Positions 7,211 through 34,858 of a DNA stretch of 64,000 nucleotides are shown here, in pieces; the stretch's first letter is position 1; every line of letters starts with the position of its first letter. The stretch comes from Clostridia bacterium (lineage in GTDB: Bacteria; Bacillota; Clostridia; Christensenellales; Borkfalkiaceae). A program made the position numbers and the translations under genes. Below the pieces are notes generated by a model that saw nothing but the letters and a program-made list of their open reading frames with translations, was not told the origin of the DNA and did no database searches. The stretch spans positions 129,473 to 193,472 of the forward strand of contig JAIDCJ010000010.1 in NCBI GenBank assembly GCA_029055875.1, read 5' to 3'.

Positions 7211-7241
7211 AATTACTCCCAAAATTTGGGAGTAATTTTTT
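7211..7241 (+). terminator. Palindrome followed by T run
   Basis: AATTACTCCCAAA is followed after one base by its exact complement TTTGGGAGTAATT and then by T residues. It would act as a plus-strand terminator just inside the left end of element A. A CTCCCAAA motif recurs near the right end of the same element (about 26010-26030). Confidence 0.6.
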
Positions 7242-7248
7242 ACTTTTT

Positions 7249-7308: not shown

Positions 7309-7328
7309 TAGGCTTTTTAGGAAACAAA

Positions 7329-7354
7329 ATCGAGGCAAAAGCCCCGATTTTTTT
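7329..7354. terminator. Terminator at the end of the defence operon
   Basis: ATCGAGGC-AAAA-GCCCCGAT forms an 8-bp stem with one mismatch, followed by T7 on the plus strand and T4 on the minus strand. It lies 60 bp beyond the stop of the last minus-strand gene of the operon and can serve both directions. Confidence 0.7.
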
Positions 7355-7415
7355 CTAATTGTAATCCTTTATTTTTTGAATGGCAAATAATGTATTTGAA
7401 TGTTGAGAATAGAAT

Positions 7416-8471: not shown

Positions 8472-8496
8472 TTTTCAATCTTATCCAATATTTTAT

Positions 8497-9189: not shown

Positions 9190-9340
9190 AGTATTTTTCT
9201 CCCTAAAAATGTTTTAAGCGTATAGTCGGGTTATTACGCAGGCCGTAGTAATTTTTATCTTTAAAGATTTTGAGCAATAAATAATTTAATTTTGTATAAA
9301 TTGTTTCATAAAGTTTAGGCTAATACTCCTTAAATAATAA

Positions 9341-14742: not shown

Positions 14743-16031
14743 ACGACTTCCTTTTTGCCTGTAACGTATTCATAGATAAGCGATTTTTTATATTCGTCAA
14801 GAGTTTCAAGTTGTGCTTTTTTGTCGTTGATGATTTGTTCTATTTCGGTACACTTATTGTCGAGATATTCGGCGATTGCTTTTTGTTCGTCGAGAGGGGG
14901 AACAAGTTGTTTTATCGCTCCAAGCTGTTCTTCGGTCAAAGAATGTCGCAGGTTTTTTGCGAGGTGTAATAGTTCCTTTGTATAATCAAGCATTAAATAG
15001 TAGTAATAATAGTAATCTGCAAAAGCGATATTTGTAGTTTTGAATTGACTATATGCTGGGCTTGTTACGCCATTCTGTTTGATAATTCCAATACATCTAG
15101 GGGTAACATCAATATCAAACAAACACATTAACAAATTGCCTTTTTGAACATATTGATAGCCGTCAAATGAAGTCGGCATTTTACCGCCCGCGTCTAAATC
15201 TCTCACAATAACTCCATTCATTGTTAGAGAAAGAATATCCTCGCCTTTATATTCACTACAGATATTTTTTGTTTTTTTCAATATGTGCTTGTTGGGCATT
15301 GTTTTCCAATGTATTGGAATATTTTTTGCCCATATAATTCCGCTGTTTTTCATGGGGGCGGAGGGGTTAAGCCCGTGAGTTACGACTTCAGTAATGACAG
15401 AACGCTTGTATTGTTCAAGCCAATCTATCTGCGTTTGAATATCTGCCTTTAAACTGTCAATCTTTTCACATTCTCTGTCCAAATAACATGTAATGTATTG
15501 TTGTTCGTTAAGCGGGGGAGTGGGAATATAAACATTTTCTATATCCTTTGAGTTGATATTACCTAAACCCGAAGTTGCATTTTGCAAATATGCAAATTGT
15601 TCTCTAACAAAAATAGAATTAAAAATATACCATGCGAATTTTGGGGAATAAGTTTTTTTCAACCTTATTCTTTGTAAGAAATTTGAGTAATAGCATTCAT
15701 GTTGAAGAAAATAGGAATCGGCCAATGTTGTTTTTCCAATATGTAATGTACTGCCACTTGATTTTGTTATAAGTAAATCATCGGGCTTAATAATATAGTT
15801 TTTATATGATACTGCACTTAATCTTCTTTTCGCAGGGTCTATGATTTCCCATTTTCCGTCAATAGTTTGTTCTGTTGAGCGCAAAACAACTTTGTCTGTG
15901 TCGGAATTAGTTGGATCATCGCCCCATACTCCACCATCATTGGAATAAATAACATATTTTGCCTTTATAGATATCCAATTTTGCGGGATTTTTCCGACCC
16001 AAGCAATTCCGCTATCTTTCATTTGTCGCAT
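14739..16031 (-). CDS. hsdS: Type I restriction specificity subunit HsdS
   Basis: HsdS reads the two half-sites of the recognition sequence. Two target-recognition domains are visible: the first starts with MKDSGIAWVGKIPQNW and ends at PPLNEQQYITCYLDRE, the second starts with MKNSGIIWAKNIPIHW and ends at PPLDEQKAIAEYLD. Each is followed by a coiled-coil segment. Full length. I choose ATG 16031, which has AAAGGAG eleven bases upstream; an ATG at 16055 overlaps the preceding stop. FRG follows with a 4-bp overlap. Confidence 0.93.
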   Translation of the reverse strand: MRQMKDSGIAWVGKIPQNWISIKAKYVIYSNDGGVWGDDPTNSDTDKVVLRSTEQTIDGKWEIIDPAKRRLSAVSYKNYIIKPDDLLITKSSGSTLHIGKTTLADSYFLQHECYYSNFLQRIRLKKTYSPKFAWYIFNSIFVREQFAYLQNATSGLGNINSKDIENVYIPTPPLNEQQYITCYLDRECEKIDSLKADIQTQIDWLEQYKRSVITEVVTHGLNPSAPMKNSGIIWAKNIPIHWKTMPNKHILKKTKNICSEYKGEDILSLTMNGVIVRDLDAGGKMPTSFDGYQYVQKGNLLMCLFDIDVTPRCIGIIKQNGVTSPAYSQFKTTNIAFADYYYYYYLMLDYTKELLHLAKNLRHSLTEEQLGAIKQLVPPLDEQKAIAEYLDNKCTEIEQIINDKKAQLETLDEYKKSLIYEYVTGKKEVV

Positions 16032-16054
16032 TGTGTTTAATGCTCCTTTGCACA

Positions 16055-16813
16055 TTATTTTATCCTTGACACCATTTGTTTATAAACAGATTTCCGCAGT
16101 TTGTATTCTTCACTTTGAAGATACTCGTCGTTTCTCTGCACCTTTAATATAGGAGCAAAATACTCTCCGTAGCTCTCAAGGTATGGCACATAATCACTTG
16201 TCCCTGCACAATAAATACTCTTACTGTGGGGAGATTTCCTCTCTCCTAATCTCAACTGTATTTCCCGTAACGATAATTTTCTAAATCCCTTTTCAAAGAA
16301 AATAAAGTTTTCGCCACCTTTAAATGCATGTGAATCAAAGACGAGGCAATCAGGCTCTAAAGACATAATTTCATTTATAGTATTTTGTTCTTCATCAGTA
16401 ACCTGATGCCCATTATCAACTTTATCAATAATCGGCTGAACACCAGCTATGCGCCCATCAACAATTATTAATTGTTCTCTATCCAATACTGTGGGAATAA
16501 AACTTGATGTATCATCATAAGCCCAGAATGTCAGTAGATTGTTTGTTGCGCCATGTTTCTTAACTTCCGCTCTTGCGGTTTCGGGACTATCAGCCCAATA
16601 TGACAATCTTTGATTGGGAAATAACTTCGAGTACCGTCCCGAACAGATTCTAAGATTTCCATTATGTAATTCGCTTGCCGTTTTATAGTACAGACCTTCA
16701 TTAAACTGAACACATCTATAGAAACTAAATTCTTGTGTTTGATAAACAGGTAGTGTTAGATGTTTGTATGTTGGAATGCCGTAATTTTGAGCTTTAAAAA
16801 CTTTACTCCACAT
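16055..16813 (-). CDS. RES-domain-like protein
   Basis: The protein (252 residues from ATG 16813) has a pattern like the RES domain, a family that includes NAD-consuming toxins: an early FYRCVQF, then CSGRYSKLFPNQRLSYWADSP and TARAEVKKHG. RES proteins use Arg, Glu and Ser residues around such a GR-x-s / Y-A-x-s-x-x-x-A-x-x-E core. Catalysis is an inference; the C-terminal half is unassigned. ATG 16813 has GGAGAT upstream and begins 4 bp after the KAP stop; the alternative TTG 16849 overlaps KAP. Tight coupling to KAP suggests a toxin or effector controlled by that ATPase. Confidence 0.55.
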   Translation of the reverse strand: MWSKVFKAQNYGIPTYKHLTLPVYQTQEFSFYRCVQFNEGLYYKTASELHNGNLRICSGRYSKLFPNQRLSYWADSPETARAEVKKHGATNNLLTFWAYDDTSSFIPTVLDREQLIIVDGRIAGVQPIIDKVDNGHQVTDEEQNTINEIMSLEPDCLVFDSHAFKGGENFIFFEKGFRKLSLREIQLRLGERKSPHSKSIYCAGTSDYVPYLESYGEYFAPILKVQRNDEYLQSEEYKLRKSVYKQMVSRIK

Positions 16814-16817
16814 AGCT

Positions 16818-18194
16818 TTATCTATCTCCGTAGCTATCAATCTCTGCAAGAATTTTTTTAATTTGTTCTATCAATTGAGATATAGTATAATTATCTGTTA
16901 AAAAAGAGGGAATCCTTATTGATTTTATAAAGCTTTCAACCCAGCTGTCATTTTCTCTATACCTGCATATATTGAATAGAAACTGCAAATCGTTATAAAA
17001 ACCTTTGTTATAATATTTATAAGTATAAGTATAAGTTTGTCTTTCTCTATATGTATAACGGTAGATTTGCTGATAACTGCTTTCATTTATATCTTTTCTA
17101 TGATAGGGACACAAATCAAGAATAATTTGATTATCATCTTTAGGTATATCCACCAGCCTACTATAGTGTTCATTACTGAGCATACGGTATAACAGCATTT
17201 GCATTGCAAACCAAATCAATGCCGGATGACAATTCAAAATAGTAAATACTATTTTTTTGCTGACAGAAATATATTTTTCTATATCGCGATTATCTATATT
17301 ATTTTCTTTACCTTTATCGACTATTTCTGACGTAACTTTTATTAAATCTTCTATAATAAAGTCAACGCCGTTTTCGATAATAGCCTCTTGACGTTTATCG
17401 TTTAGTTCATAAAATAAATCAATCAGTTTATTCTTTAATAACGTAACCGCATTTACAGATAACTGAAAATTGTATTGAAAAAACTTACGAAAATAATCCT
17501 CGCTTTTCCCTCCATAATTTTTTTCAAACGTGTTTTGTATTGCCACTTTGTTTAATGCAATAATCACCGAACAATTTTTTATATCAAATAAATGATGTAA
17601 CCGTTCTAATATCTTTAATTGCTCATCAGGCAGACACCTATCTATTTCATCGACCAAAATAATGAGCTTCGTTTGTTTTTCACGATATTCGCCCTTTTGC
17701 GTAATCTCATTCAAAACTCCTTTTGTTTCTTTTAATAGTTTTTGATAAGATTTGAAATCACCGGTTAATTTCATATCAATAGGGTTATGGAAATTTTGAA
17801 TTATCTCTTTTATTCCATCAGTAACCGCTTTAAGCTTAAAAATTTTTGAGGATACTTTTTCAAGTGTGTTTGCAGTTGTTTTTGCTGCTTTTTTTATCTT
17901 TTCCTTGTGTTGCTCAATAAGATAAAGTTTTTCGTCAACCCCGTCGATAATACAACTCAAAATTGCTATGAGAGGATCGGAATAAAAGGAATTGTTCCAC
18001 GCATCATATTTGACAATTACATATTCTTGCCTTTTTGATAGTTTTTCTTCAATCATTTGCAAAACAAAAGATTTTCCGCTACCCCATACACCGTTTATTG
18101 ACAAGCAAAAATTCTGGTCTTTTTGCAATGTGTCGACCAGCCCGCAGACTTTATTTACACTTTCTTCTCGCCCAATTTTATCTTGAAGTGCCAT
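16818..18194 (-). CDS. KAP-family P-loop NTPase
   Basis: The 458-residue protein shows KAP NTPase hallmarks: Walker A GVWGSGKS (residues 35-42), the KYDAWNNSFYSDPLIAI segment typical of the family, and Walker B LIILVDEIDRCLPDEQ (177 onward) followed by IALNKVAI. There are no clear membrane segments within the P-loop domain, unlike many KAP proteins. It begins 21 bp after the hsdM stop and ends just before the RES-like gene. KAP NTPases are STAND-type switches recurring in defence loci; here it may sense loss of restriction activity or phage signals. Confidence 0.9.
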   Translation of the reverse strand: MALQDKIGREESVNKVCGLVDTLQKDQNFCLSINGVWGSGKSFVLQMIEEKLSKRQEYVIVKYDAWNNSFYSDPLIAILSCIIDGVDEKLYLIEQHKEKIKKAAKTTANTLEKVSSKIFKLKAVTDGIKEIIQNFHNPIDMKLTGDFKSYQKLLKETKGVLNEITQKGEYREKQTKLIILVDEIDRCLPDEQLKILERLHHLFDIKNCSVIIALNKVAIQNTFEKNYGGKSEDYFRKFFQYNFQLSVNAVTLLKNKLIDLFYELNDKRQEAIIENGVDFIIEDLIKVTSEIVDKGKENNIDNRDIEKYISVSKKIVFTILNCHPALIWFAMQMLLYRMLSNEHYSRLVDIPKDDNQIILDLCPYHRKDINESSYQQIYRYTYRERQTYTYTYKYYNKGFYNDLQFLFNICRYRENDSWVESFIKSIRIPSFLTDNYTISQLIEQIKKILAEIDSYGDR

Positions 18195-18215
18195 ATCGCA
18201 GATTTTCCTTTGTGG

Positions 18216-20300
18216 CTAATTATTAAACAAATTCTTTATTCTTTCGCTTACGCTTGTTTCCAATTCCATAAATTTAGTGGCAAGTTCTTCGCTGGGTTGC
18301 GGTTGCTGATATTTATAGAAATATCTTGTGAAAGGTATCTCTGCGCCGATTTTAATAACGGGCTTCTTCACACCAAGATTTTCTTCCCAGAACCATTGCG
18401 CATCTGGAACGTAGGGGAGAACTTCACGCGCCATATAATCTTCGATATTTTCGGTATATTTTACAATCTCTTTGTCGTAAGTTTCCTTATCGTAAATAAT
18501 GTTGCCCTTTTTATCCCTCTGAATTTCCGCCGTTTTATCCATTTCGGAAAGTCCGTCGGCAATTTTTTCTATCAGTTTTTTATCTACCGCTAAAACAGAT
18601 GACAGCAGAGAAATGAAGCTGTTCGGTTCTTTGTAAACTTTGTCCGATATGTTCGCCCTAAGTGTTTGTAAAATATCGTCGTAAATCGGTTTGTTATTGA
18701 GCATCGCTTCGTATTTTAGCTTGTCTTTTCCCTCGATGGCTACGCCTAGATTTTCGTATTCGGCAATTTTTGCTTCTTCATAAAGGGAGGAAAGAGAGTT
18801 TTTCACAAGCATTTGCTCGATACGCTCTTCGGTAATTGCGTAACTTCTTTGCAGGGGTTGCATGACGGCGTACTCACGATATAAAAATTCGCTATTATCG
18901 CAAATTTTGCAATTCTCTGTGGGAATAAAATCTGCGTACAAGTGAACAATTGCTTTTCGATCGTCTTTATTCAGTTCGTTTTTCTTGTTGCCTAACGCCT
19001 TGCGTAATTTATGGTAAATATCCGCTGCGTTAATAAGCTGTATTTTGCCTTTGCGCTCTGTGCGCTTATTTTTCGACAGAATCCAAACATAAGTCTGAAT
19101 ACCTGTATTGTAGAACAAATCGGTGGGCAAAGCTATAATCGCTTCAATCAGATCTTGTTCCAAAAGCCAGCGGCGAATCTGACTTTCCCCAGATGCGGTG
19201 TCACCGTTAAAGAGGGGGGAGCCGTTTTCGATAATCGCAGCGCGACCAAAGTTATCGTCCATTTTGTCGATAGCCGATTGTAAAAAGATCATTTGCGAGT
19301 CACCGCCGCTCGGAAGCCCATGCCCCCAACGACCACTATTGCCTTTCTTATGTTCCTCGCGCACGGCAAATTCCTGACCCTCTTTGGCGTCTTTTCCACT
19401 CCACGGTGTGCCGAAAGGTGGATTCTCAATTACAAAACGCATTTTTTGGCCGCTGAAGCAATCTTCCTTGAAGGTATCAACGTGGCGGAAGTTTTCTGCA
19501 TCTTGATTTTTAATTAGCATTTCGGCAAGCCCCACGGCATAAGACTGCCCCATAAATTCCTGCCCGAAAAGGCGCACATCGGCTGTGGGGTTGAAATGCT
19601 TAATATAGTTGTATGCCGTGGAAAGCATGCCACCCGTTCCGCAAGCCTGATCACACACAGTAATTACTTTTCCGTCGTCGAAAATATCGTCGCATCCTTC
19701 AGCCATGAGAATTTCCACAAGAAGCTTAATAATGTCGCGCCCCGTGTAAAATTGTCCGGCATCAACATTCTGATAGAATCTACCGATTAAGTTTTCAAAT
19801 ATGTAGCCCATACGAATGCTATCAAATGTCTGTAAACTTAGATCAAGTTCAGAGAACGCTTTTACAACCGTATATAAACAACCGTCTTTGTCCATTTTGT
19901 CAATATGCTTTTCAATTTCAAGTTCGTTAAGAATATCCTGAACATTTGCAGAGAAACTTCTTACATAGGATTTGAAGTTTTCGGCAATACTTTCTGACTC
20001 ATTACAAAGTTCAGCTAAGTCATATCCACTTGTATTATAAAACTGAAATCCTGAAATGCGGCATAAAGCCTTGGGGGGATGGTTTGGATTTGCCTCGTAT
20101 TTTGTCCTTACCTGATCTTTCGTTGCCGCCAAAGCGCACTCGAATCTTCGAATAATAGTCATGGGGATGATAACGTCGCCGTACTTATCAGGCATATAAG
20201 AACCGCGCAGTTTATTTGCTATTGACCATATAAAGTTTGCCTCTGCAGTTACATCAACAGGGGTATCATCCCAAACATTATCTAATATTTTGTTTACCAT
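18216..20300 (-). CDS. hsdM: Type I restriction modification methyltransferase HsdM
   Basis: HsdM methylates adenine in the recognition site of the type I system. The 694-residue protein contains the SAM-binding motif DQACGTGGMLS and the catalytic NPPFG motif, with the usual N-terminal helical region (FIWSIANKLRG) and a long C-terminal region. ATG 20300 is preceded by AAGGAG. It is the first of the three hsd genes in the operon; hsdS and hsdR follow after two and three intervening genes respectively, an unusual spacing. Confidence 0.95.
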   Translation of the reverse strand: MVNKILDNVWDDTPVDVTAEANFIWSIANKLRGSYMPDKYGDVIIPMTIIRRFECALAATKDQVRTKYEANPNHPPKALCRISGFQFYNTSGYDLAELCNESESIAENFKSYVRSFSANVQDILNELEIEKHIDKMDKDGCLYTVVKAFSELDLSLQTFDSIRMGYIFENLIGRFYQNVDAGQFYTGRDIIKLLVEILMAEGCDDIFDDGKVITVCDQACGTGGMLSTAYNYIKHFNPTADVRLFGQEFMGQSYAVGLAEMLIKNQDAENFRHVDTFKEDCFSGQKMRFVIENPPFGTPWSGKDAKEGQEFAVREEHKKGNSGRWGHGLPSGGDSQMIFLQSAIDKMDDNFGRAAIIENGSPLFNGDTASGESQIRRWLLEQDLIEAIIALPTDLFYNTGIQTYVWILSKNKRTERKGKIQLINAADIYHKLRKALGNKKNELNKDDRKAIVHLYADFIPTENCKICDNSEFLYREYAVMQPLQRSYAITEERIEQMLVKNSLSSLYEEAKIAEYENLGVAIEGKDKLKYEAMLNNKPIYDDILQTLRANISDKVYKEPNSFISLLSSVLAVDKKLIEKIADGLSEMDKTAEIQRDKKGNIIYDKETYDKEIVKYTENIEDYMAREVLPYVPDAQWFWEENLGVKKPVIKIGAEIPFTRYFYKYQQPQPSEELATKFMELETSVSERIKNLFNN

Positions 20301-20375
20301 AGTAAAAACTCCTTGCTCAAATCGCTTTGATTCTAGCTTGTAAAAAATGACACATATAGTTGTGTTAGAAAAATT

Positions 20376-20855
20376 TTATAAAATTGTTTGTTTGTATTTG
20401 TAGGTTGCCTCTTTAACAACAGGAAGCATAATTTCAAATATCTGCAAGTACTCGTTTATTCTATTTGCTAAATGGTCCACAGCATAATCTTTTTCGTTAA
20501 TGTAACGCCAGTCTACGAACACATTGTTTATGTCTTCCAAATATTCTTCAAATGACTTTTGCCATGCTAAATTATTTAATTTTGGTGTAACTGCTTCTCT
20601 AATTTCAAGCTTAATATCGTCCGCAAGTTTATCAAATAATGTCTTTAATTCATGTCCGTAAATCTTAGGCGGAAGAATACTTTTAAAATATAATTCCAAG
20701 GAAAATGCACCATTAACAATAGCAGGGATATGGCAAGCAGAAAATTTTAAGATATTTCCCTCATGAACGGGATTTTTATCTTCCCGACATCTTTTGTAAG
20801 CCTCGTAAAAATCGTCAGCAATTAATACTATATCTGTGCGAAAATCATATTTCAT
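20376..20855 (-). CDS. HEPN-like small helical protein
   Basis: This roughly 160-residue helical protein has a GAFSLELYFKSIL ... GHELKTLFDKL pattern seen in HEPN-like proteins of defence and toxin-antitoxin loci, and NPVHEGN near residue 48 of the ATG-started form. I do not see a clean Rx4-6H motif, so catalytic activity is doubtful. Start is uncertain: ATG 20855 lies 16 bp after the GIY-YIG stop, while a GTG at 20909 would overlap it; neither has a good ribosome site. It precedes hsdM in the same operon. Confidence 0.6.
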   Translation of the reverse strand: MKYDFRTDIVLIADDFYEAYKRCREDKNPVHEGNILKFSACHIPAIVNGAFSLELYFKSILPPKIYGHELKTLFDKLADDIKLEIREAVTPKLNNLAWQKSFEEYLEDINNVFVDWRYINEKDYAVDHLANRINEYLQIFEIMLPVVKEATYKYKQTIL

Positions 20856-20871
20856 AGTATACTTTATGTAA

Positions 20872-21546
20872 TCAGTTTCCGTATTTTCCTTCGCTTTCAA
20901 GTCTTGCACGTAAGTCGGCTAAAACTTCGCCGTTATATGTAAAGTGCAAAGTGCCTTGTACGGGGTGGTTTAATTCTAATAACTTTTGCGCCAATGCACT
21001 TACTGAAGTAGTTGTTCCGTTATAGTTAATTGTTCTGTCGCCTACAACTGTACAAATAATGGAGGTATTATTCTTGTAAACGATTTGTTCGCCTTTCTCA
21101 ATTCCGCAAGCGTAGAAAGAAAACGGAGAACGGCGTTCAATGCTTTCCTCCTTAACCTCATTCGCGGTTTCTGTATCGGTGACTTCGCTCTGAGTAGGTG
21201 TATGTAATTTTAAGTTCTTCGTAAGTCCGTTGATTTTTGCTATGCCCTCCAAGAGTTTAAATGCGTCTTCTTTTGTCATAGCGTAAAATTCACGCACACG
21301 CTTTTTGCCCTCGAATGTTTCAATCGAACGAAGGTTAGGATTTAGGCTATCAATGATGTTGTGAATTTGGATATCTGACAACCTATCGGTAACTTCATAA
21401 GTAGCATAAACTCTGAATGCAAAAGGCACGCATTCGCTACGATTTAGCTGTTTTAACCTTTTCTGAATGTCATCGGCATATCCGATTTTTACGTATTCGG
21501 GGAATGACGGGTTAGTAAGAATATAGATCACGCCTTTAGTTTCCAT
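20872..21546 (-). CDS. T5orf172-type GIY-YIG protein
   Basis: The N-terminal 90 residues form a T5orf172/Mug113-type GIY-YIG domain (GVIYILTNPSFPEYVKIGYADDIQKRLKQL, with the conserved Arg and a later Glu in FEGKKRVREFY). A linker leads to a C-terminal module (FSFYACGIEKGEQIVY ... FTYNGEVLADLRARLE) of the kind often appended to such proteins, possibly DNA-binding. ATG 21546 has AGGAG nine bases upstream; ATG 21552 is too close to it. It is the second gene of the defence operon. Nuclease activity is an inference. Confidence 0.8.
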   Translation of the reverse strand: METKGVIYILTNPSFPEYVKIGYADDIQKRLKQLNRSECVPFAFRVYATYEVTDRLSDIQIHNIIDSLNPNLRSIETFEGKKRVREFYAMTKEDAFKLLEGIAKINGLTKNLKLHTPTQSEVTDTETANEVKEESIERRSPFSFYACGIEKGEQIVYKNNTSIICTVVGDRTINYNGTTTSVSALAQKLLELNHPVQGTLHFTYNGEVLADLRARLESEGKYGN

Positions 21547-21606
21547 AATCATTTTCTCCTTAGTTAATAGACAGTTGCAGTCGGCATTTTTTACGCAAAT
21601 TATATA

Positions 21607-24784: not shown

Positions 24785-25993
24785 TTGAAAGAACAAATTA
24801 ACCAATTACAGGGGGACGGCTTTCAGCAGCTTCTTGAAGCGATGAGAACTCAAAACGAGTTGTACAAGCAGGTGCTGGCGGGGTTAGGTCCCATAGCAAC
24901 AGAGAGTAAAGAAAATCGTCGGGGTGTGCTGAAATTTACTAGAAAGGAGATTTTACAGATGCCGACGAACTACAGAAATGTTTTTGCGACGAACGATATG
25001 ATCGTTCACTACCGTTTGAGAAAGGACGGTGTGTATGAAGCGAGATTCCACAGAAATGGAATCGACATAGAGGTTTCGTCCAAAGACTTAACAAAACTGA
25101 AACAAAAATTTATCGAAAAACTAAATAACAAGGACTTTTGTCCGAGGAAAAAACGCGATCCGAATGAGAAGACGTTTGCACAGTACGCCGCCGAGTGGCT
25201 CAACATTAAGAGGGTAACGACTAAGGAATCTACCTACAAAGAATATGTGCGAATGCTTAACCGCGACGTGTTGCCTGTATTCGGCAAGAAGGGTGCAACC
25301 GAGATTGACAGAAGCATGTTGCAGAACTATCTTTTGACCTACGTGGATAAGGGCACATTGCGAATGGCGCATAAGCTATTCCTGTTACTGCGCTGTATCT
25401 TCGACATGATAGCGGAAGATTACAACATTCCCACGCCGATGAAAAAGGTGGTAGTGCCGAACTACCAAAGCAAAAGCGGAACGGCGTTCACTTACGAGGA
25501 AGAAAAGAAGCTGGTGGGTCATTGCCTTGCAAACCTACAAAAAGACACCTCTCACGCCCTTCTCGTGCTTTTGTACGCAGGATTGCGGAGAAGCGAACTT
25601 GCAAGTCTGAACGTCATTGACGGAGCGTGGTTAGAATGCGAAACGAGCAAAGAGCGCATGGGGAAGAACGTAGTCAAGCGAAAAATACCGTTCACGCCCA
25701 TGATGAAGCGCATGCTGCCGTATATCGATTTTGAAAAGGCAAAGCGCGTAAACCTGAGTTCATTGCACACGGCGATGAAGCGGTTATTCCCCGAACACCA
25801 CTCGCACGAACTGCGACACACGTTCATTAGCAGATGCAAAGAGAGCGGCGTTTTGAGCGAAGTCGTGAGTATTTGGGCGGGGCACTCTTTGGGCGGAACG
25901 ATTACGACAACCGTTTACACGCATTACTCGGACGAATTTCAATTAAAAGAAGCGGAAAAAGTAGACTATCTACAATGGGATTTTAACGCCTAA
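24785..25993 (+). CDS. int: Tyrosine-type integrase of element A
   Basis: This 402-residue site-specific recombinase would insert and excise element A at tRNA-Gln. The catalytic set is visible: Arg in LYAGLRRSELASL, HELRHTFISRC, H in WAGHSLGG and the nucleophile Tyr in TTTVYTHYS. An N-terminal arm-binding-like region and a core-binding domain (FAQYAAEWLNIKRV) precede it. The start is TTG 24785 with AAGGAT five bases upstream; a later ATG would cut the N-terminus. It ends 147 bp from att copy 2, the usual position for an integrase next to its att site. Confidence 0.93.
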   Translation: MKEQINQLQGDGFQQLLEAMRTQNELYKQVLAGLGPIATESKENRRGVLKFTRKEILQMPTNYRNVFATNDMIVHYRLRKDGVYEARFHRNGIDIEVSSKDLTKLKQKFIEKLNNKDFCPRKKRDPNEKTFAQYAAEWLNIKRVTTKESTYKEYVRMLNRDVLPVFGKKGATEIDRSMLQNYLLTYVDKGTLRMAHKLFLLLRCIFDMIAEDYNIPTPMKKVVVPNYQSKSGTAFTYEEEKKLVGHCLANLQKDTSHALLVLLYAGLRRSELASLNVIDGAWLECETSKERMGKNVVKRKIPFTPMMKRMLPYIDFEKAKRVNLSSLHTAMKRLFPEHHSHELRHTFISRCKESGVLSEVVSIWAGHSLGGTITTTVYTHYSDEFQLKEAEKVDYLQWDFNA

Positions 25994-26091: not shown

Positions 26092-26139
26092 ACACTATAT
26101 ATTGCGTTCAAAATAAAGAACCTACAATATATAGTGTCA
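26092..26139. repeat. Conserved element-end hairpin, copy 2
   Basis: A perfect 14-bp pair GACACTATATATTG/CAATATATAGTGTC encloses an inner GTTC/GAAC stem. It lies immediately before att copy 2, downstream of int. Compared with copy 1 (6152-6201) the arms and inner stem are kept and the loop differs. It may terminate int transcription or bind recombination proteins. Confidence 0.75.
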
Positions 26140-26140
26140 G

Positions 26141-26185
26141 TGGCTGGGGTAGCTGGATTCGAACCAACGAATGACGGAGTCAGAG
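26141..26185. other. att site copy 2 (3' end of tRNA-Gln)
   Basis: The same 45 bp as at 7069-7113 and in the tRNA at 34784-34828. It is the junction between element A and the next element to the right. Sequence beyond GTCAGAG differs in each copy. Confidence 0.9.
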
Positions 26186-26354: not shown

Positions 26355-27239
26355 TTATAGTTTATTTCGATAATTGAACTTTTTGAGAACTTGCTTTTTA
26401 CGGTTTGTTGTAACTTCTGTATAGATTTGAGTGGTTGATACGCTCGCATGCCCTAGAATTTCTTGTACGGAGCGTAAATCCGCTCCATTGGCTAGAAGGT
26501 TTGTTGCAAAAGTATGGCGCAGATAATGTGGAGTAGACTTCGTGTATATTTGCGCTTTTTTAACATACTTTTTATAAATATCTTCGATGCCGTGAATTGT
26601 TATAGGCTGGTTGTAGCGATTAACAAAAAGATGGTTGTCGTCATCCTTTTTTCTATCCTTAATTAGAGTCTTTAATCTTTCCCAAGTTTGTGCCGAGGAT
26701 ATATAAATAAGGCGTTGCTTTCTGCCTTTGCCGTGAATTAAGAGCGTTCGTTCACTTGAGATTATATCATCTAAAGTCAGTGCAGCGGCTTCACCGATAC
26801 GTATACCAGTGCTTATAAGTAAATCTAATAAAGCCGCATCTCGAATATGCTCTTTTTGTGCGAAAGAGGAGAGGGAAGAAGTGTCAATATCAAAGCATTT
26901 AAGGATTTTGCTAATTTCGATAACGGTTAGTGTTTTAGGAAGTTTTCGTTCTTGCTTAAACCTGAATTTGAGTTTTGTAAAAGGAGACTTATCAATAATT
27001 TCATTATCCACAAGATAATTATAAAAAATTTTAAGAGTGATAATTTTTCTACGAATGGAGGTGTCTTTAAGTTTTAATTGACAGCTTAAGTAGGAAATAA
27101 AAGCGCAAATGTCGGGTTGAAGTATAGTATTTTCATATTTAAAAAACTGTTTCAGATCACTGGTATATGCCATTAAAGTTGTTTCAGATAAATTTTTTGT
27201 TGCCTGCAAATAGTTGATAAAATCCGATAAATATTCCAT
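26355..27239 (-). CDS. XerC/D-like tyrosine recombinase, probable DNA invertase
   Basis: The 294-residue protein has the phage-integrase core-binding domain (FINYLQATKNLSETTLMAYTSDL) and catalytic residues: Arg in ISTGIRIGEAAAL, HYLRHTFATNLL, H in ILGHASVSTTQ and Tyr in IYTEV. ATG 27239 has TTGGAG upstream. It is much shorter than the element A integrase and lacks an arm-binding domain, like recombinases that flip local promoters or genes. It starts 65 bp from the left copy of a 30-bp inverted repeat, which makes that repeat pair its probable substrate. Confidence 0.9.
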   Translation of the reverse strand: MEYLSDFINYLQATKNLSETTLMAYTSDLKQFFKYENTILQPDICAFISYLSCQLKLKDTSIRRKIITLKIFYNYLVDNEIIDKSPFTKLKFRFKQERKLPKTLTVIEISKILKCFDIDTSSLSSFAQKEHIRDAALLDLLISTGIRIGEAAALTLDDIISSERTLLIHGKGRKQRLIYISSAQTWERLKTLIKDRKKDDDNHLFVNRYNQPITIHGIEDIYKKYVKKAQIYTKSTPHYLRHTFATNLLANGADLRSVQEILGHASVSTTQIYTEVTTNRKKQVLKKFNYRNKL

Positions 27240-27266: not shown

Positions 27267-27295
27267 TTGAAAATTATATCAGAAGATGGTAAAAT
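27267..27295 (+). promoter_or_regulatory. Promoter reading into the invertible segment
   Basis: TTGAAA (27267-27272) and TAAAAT (27290-27295) are 17 bp apart. The predicted transcript start is at about 27302, so the mRNA begins almost exactly at the outer edge of the left inverted repeat (27304). It lies outside the segment that would invert. Confidence 0.7.
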
Positions 27296-27303
27296 GTTGT
27301 TAA

Positions 27304-27333
27304 AATAACTAGCAATTATTTAAGGGAATTATG
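27304..27333. repeat. 30-bp inverted repeat, left copy
   Basis: This sequence is the exact reverse complement of 31226-31255. It contains the ribosome site AAGGGA and ends with the ATG of the NTPase gene. Confidence 0.95.
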
Positions 27334-29664
27334 ATAGTAGAATCAAATACATTATACTCTAAAAAACAAATGCTACTCGCTAAAATTATCGATGTAGTAA
27401 TTGCTATCGCCTGTGGAATCGGAGTATGTTTAATTATTGCAGGTACTATAGTAGAAAATAATACTTTGAATGTTATAGGCAGCGTGCTTGCCGCTTTTGG
27501 TGTATTCGATATCGTAGAAGTAGGCGGCTTAATATTTACGCATAAATATTTCACTCTCAAAATTTTTGGTAAATTATTTAAGGTACAAGCCTTAGATAAG
27601 CCTAAAGACACTCAAAATGAAGTTTTAAATCATTTTTTTGCAAATGAGGAAAATACACTAATTTGTTGTGCGGTACTTATAAGCGGAAAGAAAGGAAGCG
27701 GGAAAAGTCAGTGTACTGATTATATAATTAATATGGCGCTATCCAATTTGAACACAAAAGAGAAAGCGTTAAAACAAAATTTCATTTATATAGATTGCTA
27801 TAATGACACTCAAAATTCGTCCAAAATTATTCAAGATTTTGAGATTTTTAAATTAAATAATTCGTTAATAATTATTGATAATTGCAATGAAGCTGATTGG
27901 GTTATAATTAAAAATATTATTGAAATAATCAATCACAAAAATTGCAGTCTATTAATAATTGAAGAAGATTCTGAAATGTTCAGAAATAAATTGAGCGAAT
28001 TATCCACACAGAATGCAAAGAACGAAGTAATTATAGTGCCTTTTGAAGAAGAAATAAAATTCGAAAATCAATCTGCAAATGCTCTGCTTCAACAAGACTT
28101 TTCTGATTTCGAAAAGAAGATAATCATTGCTTGTGCTCTTTATTGCCGTTTTTTCAATCTTTTTTATTTAAAAAATATAGTAGATGTTCTTAAGTTAAAA
28201 GGTAAAAAGAAATATGCTTGTAAGAAAGTTCTGAGAAGCTTAGTTCAAAATTATTTAATAAAGCATTTCCCAATGAATACGGAGTATTATAAATTCAGTC
28301 GAGAATGTGATTTGGAATATATAATTGATTCAAAATTAAATAATGAAGAATTGTTCGACAAAACTATAGATATTTTTAGCACAGATATTAAGTTTAAAAA
28401 TCCCGAAGTTTTGTGGCTGATTATGCTTTACCGATCAAAAAATTCCGTGTTGCAAGTAGAAGCGTCGCAAAGACGGCAATTATTTATAGATGCTGCGAAA
28501 TTTTCTAATTTTAAAAAACTTCTCAATGCTTTAGATAATTTTACCGCTAAATATAATTGCAAGAATGACTTCCTATATGAATACGGCTATCTAAATTACA
28601 ATTTAAACGATTTTGTTTCGGCATTAGAAAATTATAACAAATATTTTGCCGATGACGACTGCGAAAAGAAATTAAGGTTTATAGAAATTTTTCATACGAG
28701 TGATAACGCTGAAATAAAAAAACTCATTGATAGATTTTTATCCGAACTTAAAAATGAAAAAGAGCCTAAAAGGCTCTTTGCGGATTATTGGGAAACACAT
28801 ATTCAAAACGAGCGTGGCTTTTTTAATATTAATCGTATGCATCAAATACTCAATTCACTCATTGCGGTTGAAGAAAAAGATGATATCTTGCATACTCATA
28901 TAGAACGCTGTTTTACCGATGAGCTACGTATGTATTGGATTACAAATTCGTTAACGGAAAAAATTAATGCTGATTTACTAGAGTTGTTTGCAAATTTGTA
29001 TAAAAACGATAAGAAGTTCAAATTTTACAGTGACTTATATTTCAATGCGTGTTTTTATCATTATATCAAGCTGCCCAACGCCTTTCTTGAAAATCGATTC
29101 AATGAATTAGCAAATTTAGTTGAAACTGCTGAATGCTTTTACCGCCATGCTTTAAATGATAATTATGGAAGAATACGTTCAACGGCTACAGCAAAAATAA
29201 AACTTGCCGAGCTGCAAAGTTTGAAAGAAGAAAGCAAATTTGATGATCTGCTAGTTGAAATAGACAAATTCAGGTTTGATTCAGAGAAAAAGAATGCTAG
29301 CTTACATATAGCATATGCTGAAACGGTTAGAGCAAAGGTAATAGCTACCCAAAAATTATGTTGGCAAAATTATTTAGTTTCGGATGATATTGAAAAGGTT
29401 ATGCACTCTCTGCAAGAAGCAAACGGTATATATAAGTCATTTGGAAATGAATACGGTACATTAAGATGTGAGTATTTATCCTTAATTATAAGCATTTTAA
29501 AAGATAACCTAAAAGACTGCAAAAAGCGGATTGAACAATTCTTACCAATAACACAAAATTATGAACTTGAAAGAAAACTTTGTGAAAGACTTGTAAAAAT
29601 CCGCAAACCAGCGTATTTGGATTTCTATAACAGCATTAAATATTACCCGATTATTTTGCAGTAA
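27331..29664 (+). CDS. Membrane-anchored STAND-like P-loop NTPase
   Basis: The 777-residue protein starts with two hydrophobic helices (about 18-40 and 46-70), then has a Walker A motif GKKGSGKS (119-126) and Walker B LIIID (179-183). The remaining 500 residues are helical and look like tetratricopeptide-type repeats (YGYLNYNLNDFVSALENYNKYF). Such sensor-NTPase-repeat layouts are typical of STAND defence proteins; the family is not recognised. Its ATG and ribosome site lie in the left inverted repeat, behind the promoter at 27267-27295, so this gene is the one now expressed. Its 3' end overlaps the convergent GNAT-SHMT gene by 14 bp. Confidence 0.75.
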   Translation: MIVESNTLYSKKQMLLAKIIDVVIAIACGIGVCLIIAGTIVENNTLNVIGSVLAAFGVFDIVEVGGLIFTHKYFTLKIFGKLFKVQALDKPKDTQNEVLNHFFANEENTLICCAVLISGKKGSGKSQCTDYIINMALSNLNTKEKALKQNFIYIDCYNDTQNSSKIIQDFEIFKLNNSLIIIDNCNEADWVIIKNIIEIINHKNCSLLIIEEDSEMFRNKLSELSTQNAKNEVIIVPFEEEIKFENQSANALLQQDFSDFEKKIIIACALYCRFFNLFYLKNIVDVLKLKGKKKYACKKVLRSLVQNYLIKHFPMNTEYYKFSRECDLEYIIDSKLNNEELFDKTIDIFSTDIKFKNPEVLWLIMLYRSKNSVLQVEASQRRQLFIDAAKFSNFKKLLNALDNFTAKYNCKNDFLYEYGYLNYNLNDFVSALENYNKYFADDDCEKKLRFIEIFHTSDNAEIKKLIDRFLSELKNEKEPKRLFADYWETHIQNERGFFNINRMHQILNSLIAVEEKDDILHTHIERCFTDELRMYWITNSLTEKINADLLELFANLYKNDKKFKFYSDLYFNACFYHYIKLPNAFLENRFNELANLVETAECFYRHALNDNYGRIRSTATAKIKLAELQSLKEESKFDDLLVEIDKFRFDSEKKNASLHIAYAETVRAKVIATQKLCWQNYLVSDDIEKVMHSLQEANGIYKSFGNEYGTLRCEYLSLIISILKDNLKDCKKRIEQFLPITQNYELERKLCERLVKIRKPAYLDFYNSIKYYPIILQ

Positions 29665-31228
29665 TTTTTTTAATAAATTTACGAGATTGATTTATAAGTT
29701 TTTTTGATAAGGATTGCTGAAAATATGCTTCTTTTATGATGCCAGCCAATTGAGCGATATGCTTTCCCCTTAATCCTTGGCGCACTGCGCCATTTATTCC
29801 AATCCTTATCCCATAACCGATATCATAGGGCAAAAGCCGATAATTGGTTAAAATTTTCAACTGTTCGAGTTTTAGATACAGTTGGTAAGATTTATCTCGC
29901 GTTTCAGGCTTCAACCAAATGTGAAGAGTATAAAAATCGGATTTCCCACGCTCTACTACAGGTAGCCCGTTTTTTAATAATTCATCATATAATCTATTGA
30001 CGCATTGTATACATTCGATGGAATATTTCTTTAATTTTTCAATGTCCAATAAAGGTATAATTGAACTTATAAATTCCGAGGGATGATTATTAGAAATAAA
30101 AGTCTTTGAGTTAAACTCGTACTCGTTCCATGTATCATTCATGCTTTTGGTGCAAATCAAACATTTTTGCGGCCCAGGATAATTTTTATGCAGGGTAGAT
30201 ATCAGCACATCAAATGTTTTAAGCGGGTCAGGATAATGTTTAGTTAAAATTTGGGTTATATATTGCGATGCATCAAATACCTTTGTGCACTTAAATTCAC
30301 TAAGCCAGGTAAAATCTTCGTATTTTAGGCCTTCACTTCTATCGATTAGAATGAATTGGGGGTTATTTTTATATATAATTATTTTGCTTTTTTCTATATC
30401 AACGCAATGATTACCTTTATCAATAATCAGCGGTATAACATTCAAGCCTATTTTTGTTAATATGTTTTTTGTTGCGTAATGACCTCCCGCCTCTTCAGGG
30501 AGCAATACAACGGTGTCACCCGGCTTTGCGGCACAAAGAAAAAACAACAAATGTGCGTTTAAGCCCGAAAAAGTTTTTAAGTCCACGGCGGCGCAATTTA
30601 ATCTTTTGCACCAGGTTTCTTTTACGAAGTCATATAAGTCAACAATGTCATTTCTTCCGCCGAATATAATTTTATCATTTATTCCGCGCTTATTTTCACT
30701 GACATATAATCCTTCAAACATGCTTGTGTCAAAATTATCATAAAAGGGGAAGTTTTCAGTTGGGTTTAACAATAATGAATTTTTTATGTTTTTAATGTAA
30801 ACATTCAAAAGCGAATTATATAGATTTTTTTCGTTTACATAATAACACATACTAACATTACTTTTTGGGGTATCTTTCATTTGATTTTTAAATCCCATTT
30901 TTTTAAGCAGTCGTTCAAAGCGATTTAAAGACTTATCAAATTCAACATTAATTCTTACAATACCATTGGTCAAAGCGTTTCTGAATAACACAAACAGCAA
31001 TTTTTCTCCGTATCCGTAACGGCGAACTTTGTTTATTATAAAGAAATGTTCAATTTTATATGTATCCTTATATTTATGTTGGATAATAAGATAGCCGAAT
31101 AAGTTATTGTTTTCGACTAAAGCCCAAGTTTTACAGTCAATCGAATTAAATGGGAAATCATTATTTTCCTTAGCAAGATTTTCAACTTTATTCATTAATT
31201 CTATGTCGTCTACAAAAATTATATCCAT
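29651..31228 (-). CDS. GNAT acetyltransferase fused to SHMT-like PLP enzyme
   Basis: Residues 1-140 resemble a GNAT acetyltransferase (WALVENNNLFGYLIIQHK, then RRYGYGEKLLFVLF as the acetyl-CoA loop). Residues 150-520 resemble serine hydroxymethyltransferase: NPTEN (155-159), KTFSGLNAHLLFFL, PGDTVVLLPEEAGGHYA, FDASQY and STLHKNYPGPQ, in which Lys348 is the likely PLP lysine. The substrate cannot be deduced; it may build or modify an amino-acid-derived compound. The ATG lies within the right inverted repeat and no good promoter is seen outside it, so the gene is probably silent in this orientation. Confidence 0.75.
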   Translation of the reverse strand: MDIIFVDDIELMNKVENLAKENNDFPFNSIDCKTWALVENNNLFGYLIIQHKYKDTYKIEHFFIINKVRRYGYGEKLLFVLFRNALTNGIVRINVEFDKSLNRFERLLKKMGFKNQMKDTPKSNVSMCYYVNEKNLYNSLLNVYIKNIKNSLLLNPTENFPFYDNFDTSMFEGLYVSENKRGINDKIIFGGRNDIVDLYDFVKETWCKRLNCAAVDLKTFSGLNAHLLFFLCAAKPGDTVVLLPEEAGGHYATKNILTKIGLNVIPLIIDKGNHCVDIEKSKIIIYKNNPQFILIDRSEGLKYEDFTWLSEFKCTKVFDASQYITQILTKHYPDPLKTFDVLISTLHKNYPGPQKCLICTKSMNDTWNEYEFNSKTFISNNHPSEFISSIIPLLDIEKLKKYSIECIQCVNRLYDELLKNGLPVVERGKSDFYTLHIWLKPETRDKSYQLYLKLEQLKILTNYRLLPYDIGYGIRIGINGAVRQGLRGKHIAQLAGIIKEAYFQQSLSKKLINQSRKFIKKITAK

Positions 31229-31255
31229 AATTCCCTTAAATAATTGCTAGTTATT
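31226..31255. repeat. 30-bp inverted repeat, right copy
   Basis: Exact reverse complement of 27304-27333. It begins with the complement of the ATG of the GNAT-SHMT gene and includes its ribosome site. Outside it (31256-31320) the minus strand offers TTGACT but no acceptable -10 at the right distance. Confidence 0.95.
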
Positions 31256-31739: not shown

Positions 31740-32052
31740 TCATGTCGGTTATTGAAGAAATGCTTTTACGAATGAAAGCGAAGCAGGAAGAGGAAAAAAG
31801 TTATTAGAAAACATCTATAAAAATACAAATTATATCTACGTTTACGAGGACGGTGAGTATTATAATCCAAACTAGATTAGCTGTACATTTGTAAAGCATT
31901 TGAAGAACCGTCGTTTCAGACAGATACGTTTTCACGATTTACGTCCCAGTTGCGCTACGCTTATGCGACATAAAGGCGTTAAGATAGCACATATACAAAA
32001 GTGGTTAGGGCATAGTCCACTTTCAACGCCGAAGAAGATGTACGCGCTTTGA
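31740..32052 (+). pseudogene. Decayed integrase remnant 1
   Basis: From 31828 one frame reads NYIYVYEDGEYYNPN, stop, then HLKNRRFRQIRFHDLRPSCATLMRHKGVKIAHIQKWLGHSPLSTPKKMYAL. This is the C-terminal catalytic half of a tyrosine integrase: HDLR without the following His, GHS, and Tyr. An in-frame TAG interrupts it, and the preceding KQEEEK-type sequence (about 31740-31827) is in another frame. It marks an old element end within element B. Confidence 0.75.
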
Positions 32053-32190: not shown

Positions 32191-32991
32191 CTATTTAGAA
32201 CATTTGAGAGGATGCATTTTTTTGTTTTTTATGTGGTTAATCCAAAATTTCTCGCTGTAATAATCTAATAAAAACTCAGGAATTCCACTTAATACAAATA
32301 TTTTATTTTGTTCTGTATAATGACATTCTTGCAAATAAATATTATATGGTGTGACCGAATCTTTATAATTTCGATATGATATTACTTCGTCTAGCTTAAA
32401 TAAGCAGCTTAGTCGTTGAGAGAACGAAGAAAGGATGTCTTTCCATTCAACTATGGAATAATTCGAAATTTTGGTATTGGCGTTATTCGTTCCAGACCGA
32501 TGTTTGTATGAGGTGAGCTGCTCGAAATCCAAAGTACATTCTGTAACAATATTACAAGTTCCAGATTTATAGTCTCGTAAAGCTTCTATCATTGGATAGC
32601 TAATATAGAGCTTTCCTAACTCTGTTTCGTTATCAAAAGTTTGAAGCATCTCACTCAATACATCTTTATCTCTATCTTCTATTTTTAAATTATCGTGATG
32701 ACCATCAAAGTCAAAGAAGAGGTAAATTTCGTCGAAGTCATCTCGGCTATACGCAGATAAAATCCGGTTGGCATCAGAATCTGTTTCTTTTAATATCTCA
32801 ACCAAATCAGTTTCAAAATCATCGTTTTTTAGTTTGTTCCAAAGCATATATACATTTTGCTTTGCCGATAAAGTGAGAATAAACACAGGTTTCTTGCCAC
32901 TAAAAAAAGTGTTTCGAATGTTATCAATTACATCGTATTCACGATCTTCGCCTTCAACTATAGCAAGTATATGACCAAGCTTATCAGCCAT
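32191..32991 (-). CDS. TOPRIM-like effector of an ATPase-nuclease pair
   Basis: The 266-residue protein has a TOPRIM-like pattern: a Glu after a hydrophobic strand in HILAIVEGEDREYDVI (residues 7-22) and a later LFFDFDGHHDN with the Asp-x-Asp pair, then YPMIEALRDY. In PARIS (AriB), RloB and OLD-type systems such a domain acts as the nuclease partner of an AAA ATPase. Its ATG overlaps the end of the ATPase gene by eight bases, so the two are translationally coupled. I cannot assign it to a named family with confidence. Confidence 0.6.
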   Translation of the reverse strand: MADKLGHILAIVEGEDREYDVIDNIRNTFFSGKKPVFILTLSAKQNVYMLWNKLKNDDFETDLVEILKETDSDANRILSAYSRDDFDEIYLFFDFDGHHDNLKIEDRDKDVLSEMLQTFDNETELGKLYISYPMIEALRDYKSGTCNIVTECTLDFEQLTSYKHRSGTNNANTKISNYSIVEWKDILSSFSQRLSCLFKLDEVISYRNYKDSVTPYNIYLQECHYTEQNKIFVLSGIPEFLLDYYSEKFWINHIKNKKMHPLKCSK

Positions 32992-34090
32992 TGAAAGATC
33001 CTGCCTTGTACATCTTTTGGATGTTATGCGCTTTTCTTAAATCCTTATCAGTTAGATCGCTAAAAGAATTTATCTTATTGTCTTTTATAATAAAGAAACA
33101 ATCTGGACGCAATAGGTCATTGGATAACAGATCCGTATTGTGTGTGGTGAAAAAAACTTGAGTATTTTTAAGTTCCTTTACTAATTTTATAATCGCAGTT
33201 GATAATTCGAAATGATAAAACGCATCATACTCATCTATATAGACAAACGAAGCGTTAGCTAATCGAAGATACCAGTAATAAAAAAGCGCTAATGATTTTG
33301 TTCCAGTTGAAGCCACAGACATAAAATCATATTCACCATTTGCAAATTTGCAATAAAGCTGTTTAATGCCATTAACTTCTCTTTCAATAAGATTATACTT
33401 GATGCCTTGAGAATAAAGGAATTTTTCAAACTCTTTTGTTTTTCCCGCTCTAATAATTCCTTGTGTAAAACTGTCGGGCCCAACTATTAAACCTTGATAA
33501 CCCCGTTCGTCTAATGAGTAAAACATAAGCATCCTTTCGATATAATCAATAAATTCATAGAATGCACAATTTAATTCGTCTTTTTTATCGAGCATGGCAT
33601 TGCTTTTTATATATTTTACTCTAGAAATTCCATCTCGGTTTGATACTAAATTGAGGGTTTCGGCACCTTTTAAGTTCGTAAATCCCTCATTTTTGATAAA
33701 ATCGTAGAATACTACTTCCTCTCCATTAACCAATAAGGATTCATACGTAAGCTCCAATGCGCGCGTCTTCCCGTATTTATAGAGGAACTCAAACGAACCG
33801 AACTGAAAAACATATTCAAATTCTGCCGAACTTTTAGGCGAATCCAAATTGAGATAGATATCATATTTTTGTAGTAATTTTTCTTTATCGGTTAAATGAA
33901 GGATAATATCAAAAATAGCGAGTGCTAAATTTGATTTGCCGCTTCCATTAATTCCATAAATTATGCCTTTTGTTACGCAATTAGCGTTTATAGCTTCCTG
34001 ATTGTATTCATAACTATAGGGTTGATTTAAGACAAACGTAGTTTTCTTCTTGAAATTTTTAAAGTTCTCCACGGAAAATCTTGTTAGCAT
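32984..34090 (-). CDS. AAA15/21-type ATPase of a defence pair
   Basis: The protein (368 residues from ATG 34090) is an ABC-type/SMC-like AAA ATPase as in RloA, AriA and AbiL: FSVENFKNFKKKTTF, Walker A GINGSGKSN, signature-like SVASTGTKSLALFYYW, Walker B FVYIDEYDAF and TTHNTDLLS with the switch His. ATG 34090 has GGAGGT upstream; a start at 34105 overlaps that site. With the TOPRIM partner it forms a two-gene operon, likely sensing phage proteins and triggering abortive infection. This role is inferred from the family. Confidence 0.85.
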   Translation of the reverse strand: MLTRFSVENFKNFKKKTTFVLNQPYSYEYNQEAINANCVTKGIIYGINGSGKSNLALAIFDIILHLTDKEKLLQKYDIYLNLDSPKSSAEFEYVFQFGSFEFLYKYGKTRALELTYESLLVNGEEVVFYDFIKNEGFTNLKGAETLNLVSNRDGISRVKYIKSNAMLDKKDELNCAFYEFIDYIERMLMFYSLDERGYQGLIVGPDSFTQGIIRAGKTKEFEKFLYSQGIKYNLIEREVNGIKQLYCKFANGEYDFMSVASTGTKSLALFYYWYLRLANASFVYIDEYDAFYHFELSTAIIKLVKELKNTQVFFTTHNTDLLSNDLLRPDCFFIIKDNKINSFSDLTDKDLRKAHNIQKMYKAGSFNG

Positions 34091-34115
34091 ACTAAATACC
34101 TCCAATAATAATATT

Positions 34116-34283: not shown

Positions 34284-34484
34284 ATGTACGTAGTAAAACA
34301 TTTAAAGAACCGATGTTTTAGGCATTTACGATTACACGATATGCTTAATAGCTGTACAACGCCTATGCGAAATGAAGGCATTAAGAAGGAAGATATACAA
34401 AAGTGGTTAGGACATAGTCAACTCGCTACCACTAAAAAGATATATGTACATTTTGAGGAGGAGCAACTTATCGCATTAGCGTAA
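34284..34484 (+). pseudogene. Decayed integrase remnant 2
   Basis: The frame reads MYVVKHLKNRCFRHLRLHDMLNSC ... DIQKWLGHSQLATTKKIYVHFEEE. It is the last part of a tyrosine integrase, related to remnant 1, with the catalytic HxLRH degraded to HDMLN but the GHS and Tyr elements kept. It lies 300 bp from the tRNA, where an element's integrase is expected, so it was probably the integrase of element B. Confidence 0.75.
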
Positions 34485-34750: not shown

Positions 34751-34782
34751 GGGCTATTTTTGCTTAAAAATAGCCCTTTTTA
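34751..34782. terminator. Terminator beside tRNA-Gln
   Basis: GGGCTATTTTT and AAAAATAGCCC form an 11-bp stem followed by T residues. It lies directly beyond the 3' end of the minus-strand tRNA gene and can end its transcript in either orientation. Confidence 0.75.
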
Positions 34783-34783
34783 G

Positions 34784-34858
34784 TGGCTGGGGTAGCTGGA
34801 TTCGAACCAACGAATGACGGAGTCAGAGTCCGTTGCCTTACCGCTTGGCGACACCCCA
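34784..34858 (-). tRNA. tRNA-Gln (anticodon CTG)
   Basis: The 75-nt gene on the minus strand starts TGGGGTGTCGCCAAGCGGTA, has an anticodon loop CTCTGAC giving CTG, a GTTCGAATC T loop and an acceptor stem pairing TGGGGT with its 3' complement ahead of GCCA; CCA is encoded. Its 3' 45 bp form the target of the integrative elements to the left. The gene remains intact, because the elements reconstitute or extend from its 3' end. Confidence 0.97.

Follow-up and report, generated by a model that had tools for sequence, protein, structure and literature searches.

A putative invertible two-gene cassette beside a tyrosine recombinase gene probably alternates the halves of one defense system

Surface proteins and restriction-enzyme specificity are known targets of phase variation by DNA inversion. 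Here we describe positions 27304 to 31255 of a 64,000-nucleotide (nt) stretch (the window) of contig JAIDCJ010000010.1, from assembly GCA_029055875.1 of a Clostridia bacterium (Borkfalkiaceae), in which two convergent genes lie between inverted repeats beside the gene of a XerC/D-like tyrosine recombinase. The G segment of phage Mu and the C segment of P1 are likewise invertible and hold two gene sets, but they are turned by serine recombinases (Gin and Cin), and their genes are related tail-fiber genes with a shared N-terminus. An inversion precedent is also known for pglX/BREX, for which our literature search found no paper.

Whole genes are alternated in the closest described layouts. In Ureaplasma parvum, inversion alternates two whole genes at mba/UU376 and at UU172 (PMC3047005, PMC3599477); as proposed for our cassette, the available portions of these papers describe short inverted repeats, putative tyrosine recombinases, and alternate expression, but the products are surface proteins, and a conserved pair of an enzyme and a nucleoside triphosphatase (NTPase) is not described there. 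In Lactobacillus acidophilus, inversion swaps a silent whole gene for the expressed one (slpA/slpB; PMC7858073, and Boot 1996 cited there), but the available text presents a pair of S-layer genes rather than partners in a single system. These precedents (PMC3047005, PMC7858073) correct an earlier, sequence-only reading of this DNA, which knew of no phase-variation layout that chooses between two unrelated full-length proteins. The accessible parts of the pneumococcal hsdS/PsrA papers describe a tyrosine recombinase, inverted repeats, and a restriction-type system, but there a specificity gene is rearranged and no two different proteins alternate (PMC4948785, PMC7096588). PinQ inversion alters phage sensitivity through phage T2 adsorption, but according to the part of the source available it involves a serine recombinase and targets cryptic prophage DNA (PMC12529663). 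Some sister cassettes of our locus hold the ThsA and TIR genes of the anti-phage system Thoeris, as known from the portions available of PMC7272460, PMC11204291, and PMC12578639; cassette genes, however, are convergent and repeat bounded, and the window pair is not Thoeris. No paper on an invertible Thoeris or on this recombinase-cassette family was among the literature matches listed. For Thoeris together with inversion, only PMC12529663 was found, and in its available text Thoeris occurs merely in a reference title. The available main text of PMC11892184 and PMC5903667 has no word beginning with "defense."

The window locus is made up of the following features (lengths of proteins in amino acids [aa]).

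26355-27239, minus strand: XerC/D-like tyrosine recombinase gene, 294 aa, presumed invertase (Phage_integrase match, 1.3e-40)
27267-27295, plus strand: promoter-like TTGAAA-N17-TAAAAT, separated by 8 nt from the outer edge of the left arm
27273-27278, minus strand: TG-extended TATAAT, probably the -10 element of the recombinase promoter (by eye)
27304-27333, plus strand: left arm of the inverted repeat, with core AATAACTAGCAATTATT, ribosome site AAGGGA, and the ATG of the NTPase gene
27331-29664, plus strand: probable NTPase gene, 777 aa, whose product contains a conserved GxxxxGK and has, by eye, a hydrophobic N-terminus; at present faces the promoter
29651-31228, minus strand: GNAT-SHMT fusion gene, 525 aa; at present faces away from the promoter
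31226-31255, minus strand: right arm of the inverted repeat, with ribosome site AAGGGA and the ATG of the GNAT-SHMT gene

The layout that the sequence-only reading had described held on recomputation. The arms match at 30 of 30 positions in inverted orientation, each contains AAGGGA and ends in the ATG of its own gene, and the two open reading frames overlap by 14 bp at their stops. The recombinase gene starts 64 bp from the left arm, and within 70 bp outside the arms the best sigma70-like score is 11.0 on the left (shuffle P = 0.010) against 3.9 on the right (P = 0.617). About 3e-9 perfect 30-bp inverted pairs are expected by chance in a window of the same composition, and a 20-mer from the repeat, with up to three mismatches allowed, occurs in its own genome only at the two arms; no exact match to the 30-mer was found in viral contigs. 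By eye, the -35 of the cassette promoter directly adjoins the likely -10 of the recombinase on the opposite strand, so the two promoters would stand back to back. We propose that the XerC-like recombinase would recombine the two 30-bp repeats and turn the 3.9-kb segment round. The fixed promoter would then serve the membrane NTPase in one orientation and the GNAT-SHMT enzyme in the other, from one leader and start codon, and the gene on the other side would be left promoterless after each flip.

We hold with good confidence that 27304-31255 is a gene-choice inverton whose conserved paired genes are partners, probably the halves of one defense system expressed in turn. The gene-choice inverton itself is well supported; that it flips in this strain, that its genes are expressed alternately, and that they act in defense, we infer. 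The idea of an invertible cassette with a fixed outside promoter and a choice of whole proteins gains its support from relatives, namely, the shared architecture of 30 complete cassettes, promoter-like matches that lie mainly beside the recombinase, the occurrence of two gene orders, and contig joins indicative of both orientations.

The relatives were gathered through the recombinase. Its residues R147, K171, H238, R241, H264, and Y273, which we take to be the catalytic residues of a tyrosine recombinase, are unvarying across eight aligned sequences. The protein stays under the NCBIfam equivalog cut-offs for XerC (230.8 of 335.15 bits) and XerD (230.1 of 329.6 bits). A relative at an E value of ≤1e-30 occurs in 14 of 151 genomes of the order (own genome counted); relatives in viral contigs are distant (23 to 35% identity; best E value, 2e-26), and phage relatives reach 38% identity. 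Scanning 84,980 species genomes gave 186 relatives, and the best 80 (51 to 87% identity) were kept for locus counts. Their hosts are nearly all metagenome-assembled genomes (MAGs), for the most part labeled as Clostridia or as related Bacillota; many of the names point to the animal gut. In L115, L118, L120, L123, L125, and L128, the recombinase leader carries, by eye, an inverted repeat of the type CTCCTCGAAATT...AATTTCGAGGAG over the ribosome site, which possibly controls translation of the recombinase.

A shared site accompanies the recombinase: AATAACTNNNNATTATT or a near variant lies beside its start in at least 53 of the 80 loci. A complete inverted pair is found upstream in 21 of these 53 and downstream in 2 (L072 and L084); in another 27 the site lies between the recombinase and a contig end at most 350 bp away, and 3 have no partner in the contig. 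In the 24 cassettes whose 48 arms were compared, core positions 1, 3 to 5, and 13 to 15 do not vary, and we read the core, AATAA-N7-TTATT, as a pair of putative half sites with a 7-nt spacer between them. Exact arms of complete cassettes reach 64 nt at most. In L084 (2743-6178), MIRDELI begins both cassette proteins, and the repeat seems to extend into coding sequence.

The 30 complete cassettes that we read comprise a set of 24 (the window, two in L041, and 21 from the scan) and L183, L184 (the cassette of L072), L185 (one imperfect arm), L084, L252, and L255. Genes run inward and converge from both arms in 29 of them, the exception being L124, with an outward gene between the recombinase-side arm and its partner; two genes share a side in L099, L128, L130, and L185. 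Four main types recur. Type 1, the NTPase with GNAT-SHMT, is found in the window, L041 (47% and 30% identity to the window pair), L128, and L134. Type 2 is the Thoeris pair: in L067, L090, L093, and L105 a ThsA SIR2-STALD effector (profile matches from 4e-58 to 1e-142) stands with a TIR partner, and L061 was assigned by eye. In L067, the TIR partner has a Pfam TIR_2 match but none to a ThsB model at 1e-3. Type 3 joins an ATP-grasp protein to a large protein of 766 to 818 aa (L056, L078, L079, L099, L184, L084, L252, and L255) and is hosted by Clostridia-type MAGs, Paenibacillus, and Methylobacterium. Its eight ATP-grasp proteins are homologous, with links of 1e-10 or better for each one; links among the large proteins are weak (e.g., 1e-27 for L099 and L184 and 6e-5 for L252 and L255), and that of L056 stands apart with a best value of 0.048. 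Only the large protein of L255 passes the Pfam AAA_16 cut-off, with those of L184 and L252 below it and no Pfam family in those of L056, L078, and L099, so the name NTPase is partly inference for this type. No kinship of these large proteins with the window NTPase was detectable (hhalign probability, 0.3%, with four sequences on each side). Type 4 pairs proteins of about 340 and 560 aa (L068, L115, L124, and L125). Other pairs are carbamoyltransferase and Mrr/AAA protein; SHMT and AAA protein (the latter weakly matching TIR); radical SAM plus ATP-grasp and TIR protein; glycosyltransferase and HEAT protein (the latter again weakly matching TIR); TIR and kinase-like protein; and pentapeptide proteins and ATP-grasp.

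In the window pair itself, SHMT and GNAT both exceed the Pfam cut-off in the fusion, which keeps a conserved LHK motif, and the NTPase has only weak Pfam AAA matches, below cut-off; SIR2 and TIR domains are absent from both proteins. Among 248 genomes of the order, its own counted, the NTPase was found in 2; of 61 relatives, again counting the own genome, 45 have matches to GNAT-SHMT (19 to 30% identity outside the own genome). Those GNAT-SHMT matches are mostly at the level of ordinary SHMT, and the best candidate (24% identity) was set aside as a different protein of 801 aa.

The sequence-only reading had supposed a choice between two unrelated proteins. A choice between whole proteins stands, but arbitrary pairing does not: the pair is kept in four genomes, and sister cassettes hold the Thoeris pair, which together fit halves of one system better than unrelated alternatives. 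The two products are therefore likely partners, and their system probably serves in defense. By analogy with Thoeris, in which TIR makes the signal and ThsA is the effector, the window genes would be the enzyme half and the sensor/effector half. With the halves expressed in turn, the system would be unarmed in most cells, and its two proteins would come together only right after a flip or when a cell holds both orientations; we hypothesize that alternation keeps the immune system unarmed until the flip. It is unlikely, in our view, that the switch is real but its genes are alternatives that each work alone, like antigen variants. The ATP-grasp and large NTPase-like pair recurs in Clostridia, Paenibacillus, and Methylobacterium, and ThsA and TIR, which share four cassettes, are known to act together, according to the available portions of PMC7272460, PMC11204291, and PMC12578639. 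Such alternatives would make mutual exclusion natural and have parallels in the whole proteins that alternate in Ureaplasma (MBA/UU376) and L. acidophilus (slpA/slpB); also, by eye, genome G296 seems to have the SIR2 type at both arms, and L061 has a SIR2-like stretch beside its TIR gene.

Across the loci, a promoter-like match was defined as a sigma70-like pair within 70 bp outside the arm, reading inward, at P ≤ 0.05 against 200 mononucleotide shuffles; the two cassettes of L041 (no adjoining recombinase), L072/L184, L084, L183, L185, L252, and L255 were excluded. Matches were found in 33 of 52 recombinase-side flanks (8 of 22 intact loci and 25 of 30 others) versus 1 of 29 far-side flanks (1 of 22 intact and 0 of 7 others), a difference (Fisher P = 6e-8) whose P value, like the Fisher value for contig ends below, is too strong because the loci are related and some come from one genome. 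The form seen most often, TTGAAA or TTGCAA-N17-TAnnAT, stops about 8 nt short of the core.

Inversion in relatives is suggested by gene order and by contig ends. Relative to the recombinase, and counting only cassettes that adjoin one, none of the four main types keeps to a single gene order. The gene nearest the recombinase is the NTPase in the window and L128 and the enzyme in L134 (type 1); SIR2 in L061, L067, L090, and L105 and TIR in L093 (type 2); and the large protein in L056, L099, L072, L084, and L252 and ATP-grasp in L078, L079, and L255 (type 3). Type 4 has two cassettes each way. Contigs end within 350 bp of the recombinase upstream in 34 of the 80 loci and downstream in 5 (Fisher P = 8e-8), and the site is present at 27 of the 34 upstream ends. 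The largest k-mers usual in assembly exceed most arm lengths, so the repeat by itself should not break the assembly. Seven genomes have a second contig end with the same core, which we took for the far flank. The two flanks of G283, like those of G299, enter the same gene start and are identical over 77 nt from the arm edge. On the recombinase side, the contig stops 77 nt from the outer arm edge in G283, G299, G301, and G295 and 55 nt from it in G282; 55 and 77 are usual SPAdes k-mers. The arms of G301 are 31 nt long, yet both of its contigs end exactly 77 nt from the arm edge, as a de Bruijn graph would give if both orientations were in the reads. It is thus as if both orientations occurred in the populations of G283, G299, and G301, judging from their assemblies. 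Beside the invertible site of G283, locus L187 (2735-4854) has, by eye, a codirectional SIR2-like and TIR-like pair.

Besides the relatedness of the loci, several observations weigh against this reading of a flipping, alternately expressed defense pair. The site was not counted in 27 of the 80 loci and is missing at 7 of the 34 upstream contig ends. Comparison of relatives in either orientation gave both gene orders in sister types but no inverted copy of the window locus, whose assembly is in one orientation and crosses both arms unbroken. The contigs of G296 and G292 depart from the 55/77 distances, ending at 282 and 130 nt, and the shared 77 nt of G283 and G299 end at the contig end, where a repeat of at least 77 nt would look alike. 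Against the PADLOC defense families, the window pair gave no strong full-length match (best, 0.0016 for mad8 and 7e-4 for PDC-M11A, both partial). An immune system without joint expression of both parts is hard to reconcile with simple defense. Finally, 14 of the 22 intact loci have no promoter-like match on either side, among them the close relatives L056 (87% recombinase identity), L062, L075, L078, and L079 as well as distant ones, so a promoter at this place is not universal; L134 has a match on both sides. These last points speak for constant transcription of both genes, with inversion occurring to little effect on expression, and both partners of a two-part system would then be at hand. 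We nevertheless consider this improbable, given the contrast between recombinase-side and far-side flanks (33 of 52 versus 1 of 29) and the inward-reading hairpin-T sequences that some far flanks show by eye.

It is very improbable that in this strain the recombinase is an island integrase or inactive and the repeat a fossil. The recombinase gene does end 170 bp from an att-like repeat (below), and the assembly is unbroken, but the arms are still 30/30 identical, the catalytic residues are intact, and the island holds stretches that by eye resemble remnants of another integrase. Likewise very improbable is the view that the repeats form the ends of a mobile cassette that the tyrosine recombinase would move or exchange, with inversion as a by-product: cassettes do lie away from a recombinase in L041 and L183 and the window copy sits in a tRNA island, but the arms directly precede start codons, the outer flanks of the window copy differ, with no target-site duplication, and no recombinase gene was seen by eye inside the cassettes read, empty sites not having been searched for.

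The cassette architecture is also found outside Clostridia. The closed plasmid NZ_CP010977.1 of Paenibacillus sp. IHBB 10380 carries a recombinase with 46% identity and, after it, a type 3 pair enclosed by a perfect 30-bp repeat. On the closed plasmid pMRAD01 of Methylobacterium radiotolerans JCM 2831, a 29%-identical recombinase is followed by a type 3 pair in the order opposite to that in Paenibacillus, within a perfect 17-bp repeat that takes in both ATGs. In Anaerocaecibacter muris CLA-AA-M11, a 1.7-kb cassette with sites at 243025 and 244746 of its contig and encoding a spermidine-synthase-like protein and a protein without a Pfam match lies about 125 kb from the organism's own recombinase. 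L041, in genome G179, has two different cassettes (6365-10428 and 14035-18418) about 3.6 kb apart, with the recombinase on a separate contig. Because their cassettes are remote from it, the recombinase likely acts in trans in A. muris and G179. More tentatively, and with somewhat less than even belief, we suggest a cross-phylum immune architecture in which a dedicated tyrosine recombinase holds defense partners on opposite strands with one transcribed at a time, the flip serving as an AND gate that arms the system only if both proteins are present together afterward, perhaps upon infection. If this is true, inversion would act on the wiring of two-part immune systems, with one part on and the other off, reversibly, and could explain low-cost carriage of self-harming immune systems. 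A recombinase with an AATAA-N7-TTATT-like site and a convergent pair then becomes a search rule for unnamed enzyme/effector pairs, such as ATP-grasp with large NTPase-like proteins and GNAT-SHMT with NTPase. The two closed plasmids and the named A. muris strain make the switch testable. On a Sulfitobacter plasmid (L254, 6025-10619), a gene whose product is 33% identical to the window enzyme (residues 109 to 525) and a methyltransferase gene face a convergent gene for a 903-aa protein; no clear repeat was found around this arrangement.

The cassette sits in an island at a tRNA-Gln gene (34784-34858), bounded as follows.

26139-26185: att-like 47-bp repeat, left island boundary
34782-34828: att-like 47-bp repeat, right island boundary, overlapping tRNA-Gln

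Identical att-like 29-mers occur three times (7083-7111, 26155-26183, and 34798-34826, the last inside tRNA-Gln), which suggests tandem islands. A 402-aa integrase gene lies at 24785-25993, and two alike 152-nt stretches (31891-32042 and 34293-34444) appear by eye to be integrase remnants. The island of the cassette also holds a two-gene PDC-M12 defense candidate (32191-34105; E values of 5e-137 and 7e-66), and the adjoining island has a type I methyltransferase with a PDC-S57 candidate (18216-21552; E value of 1e-96).

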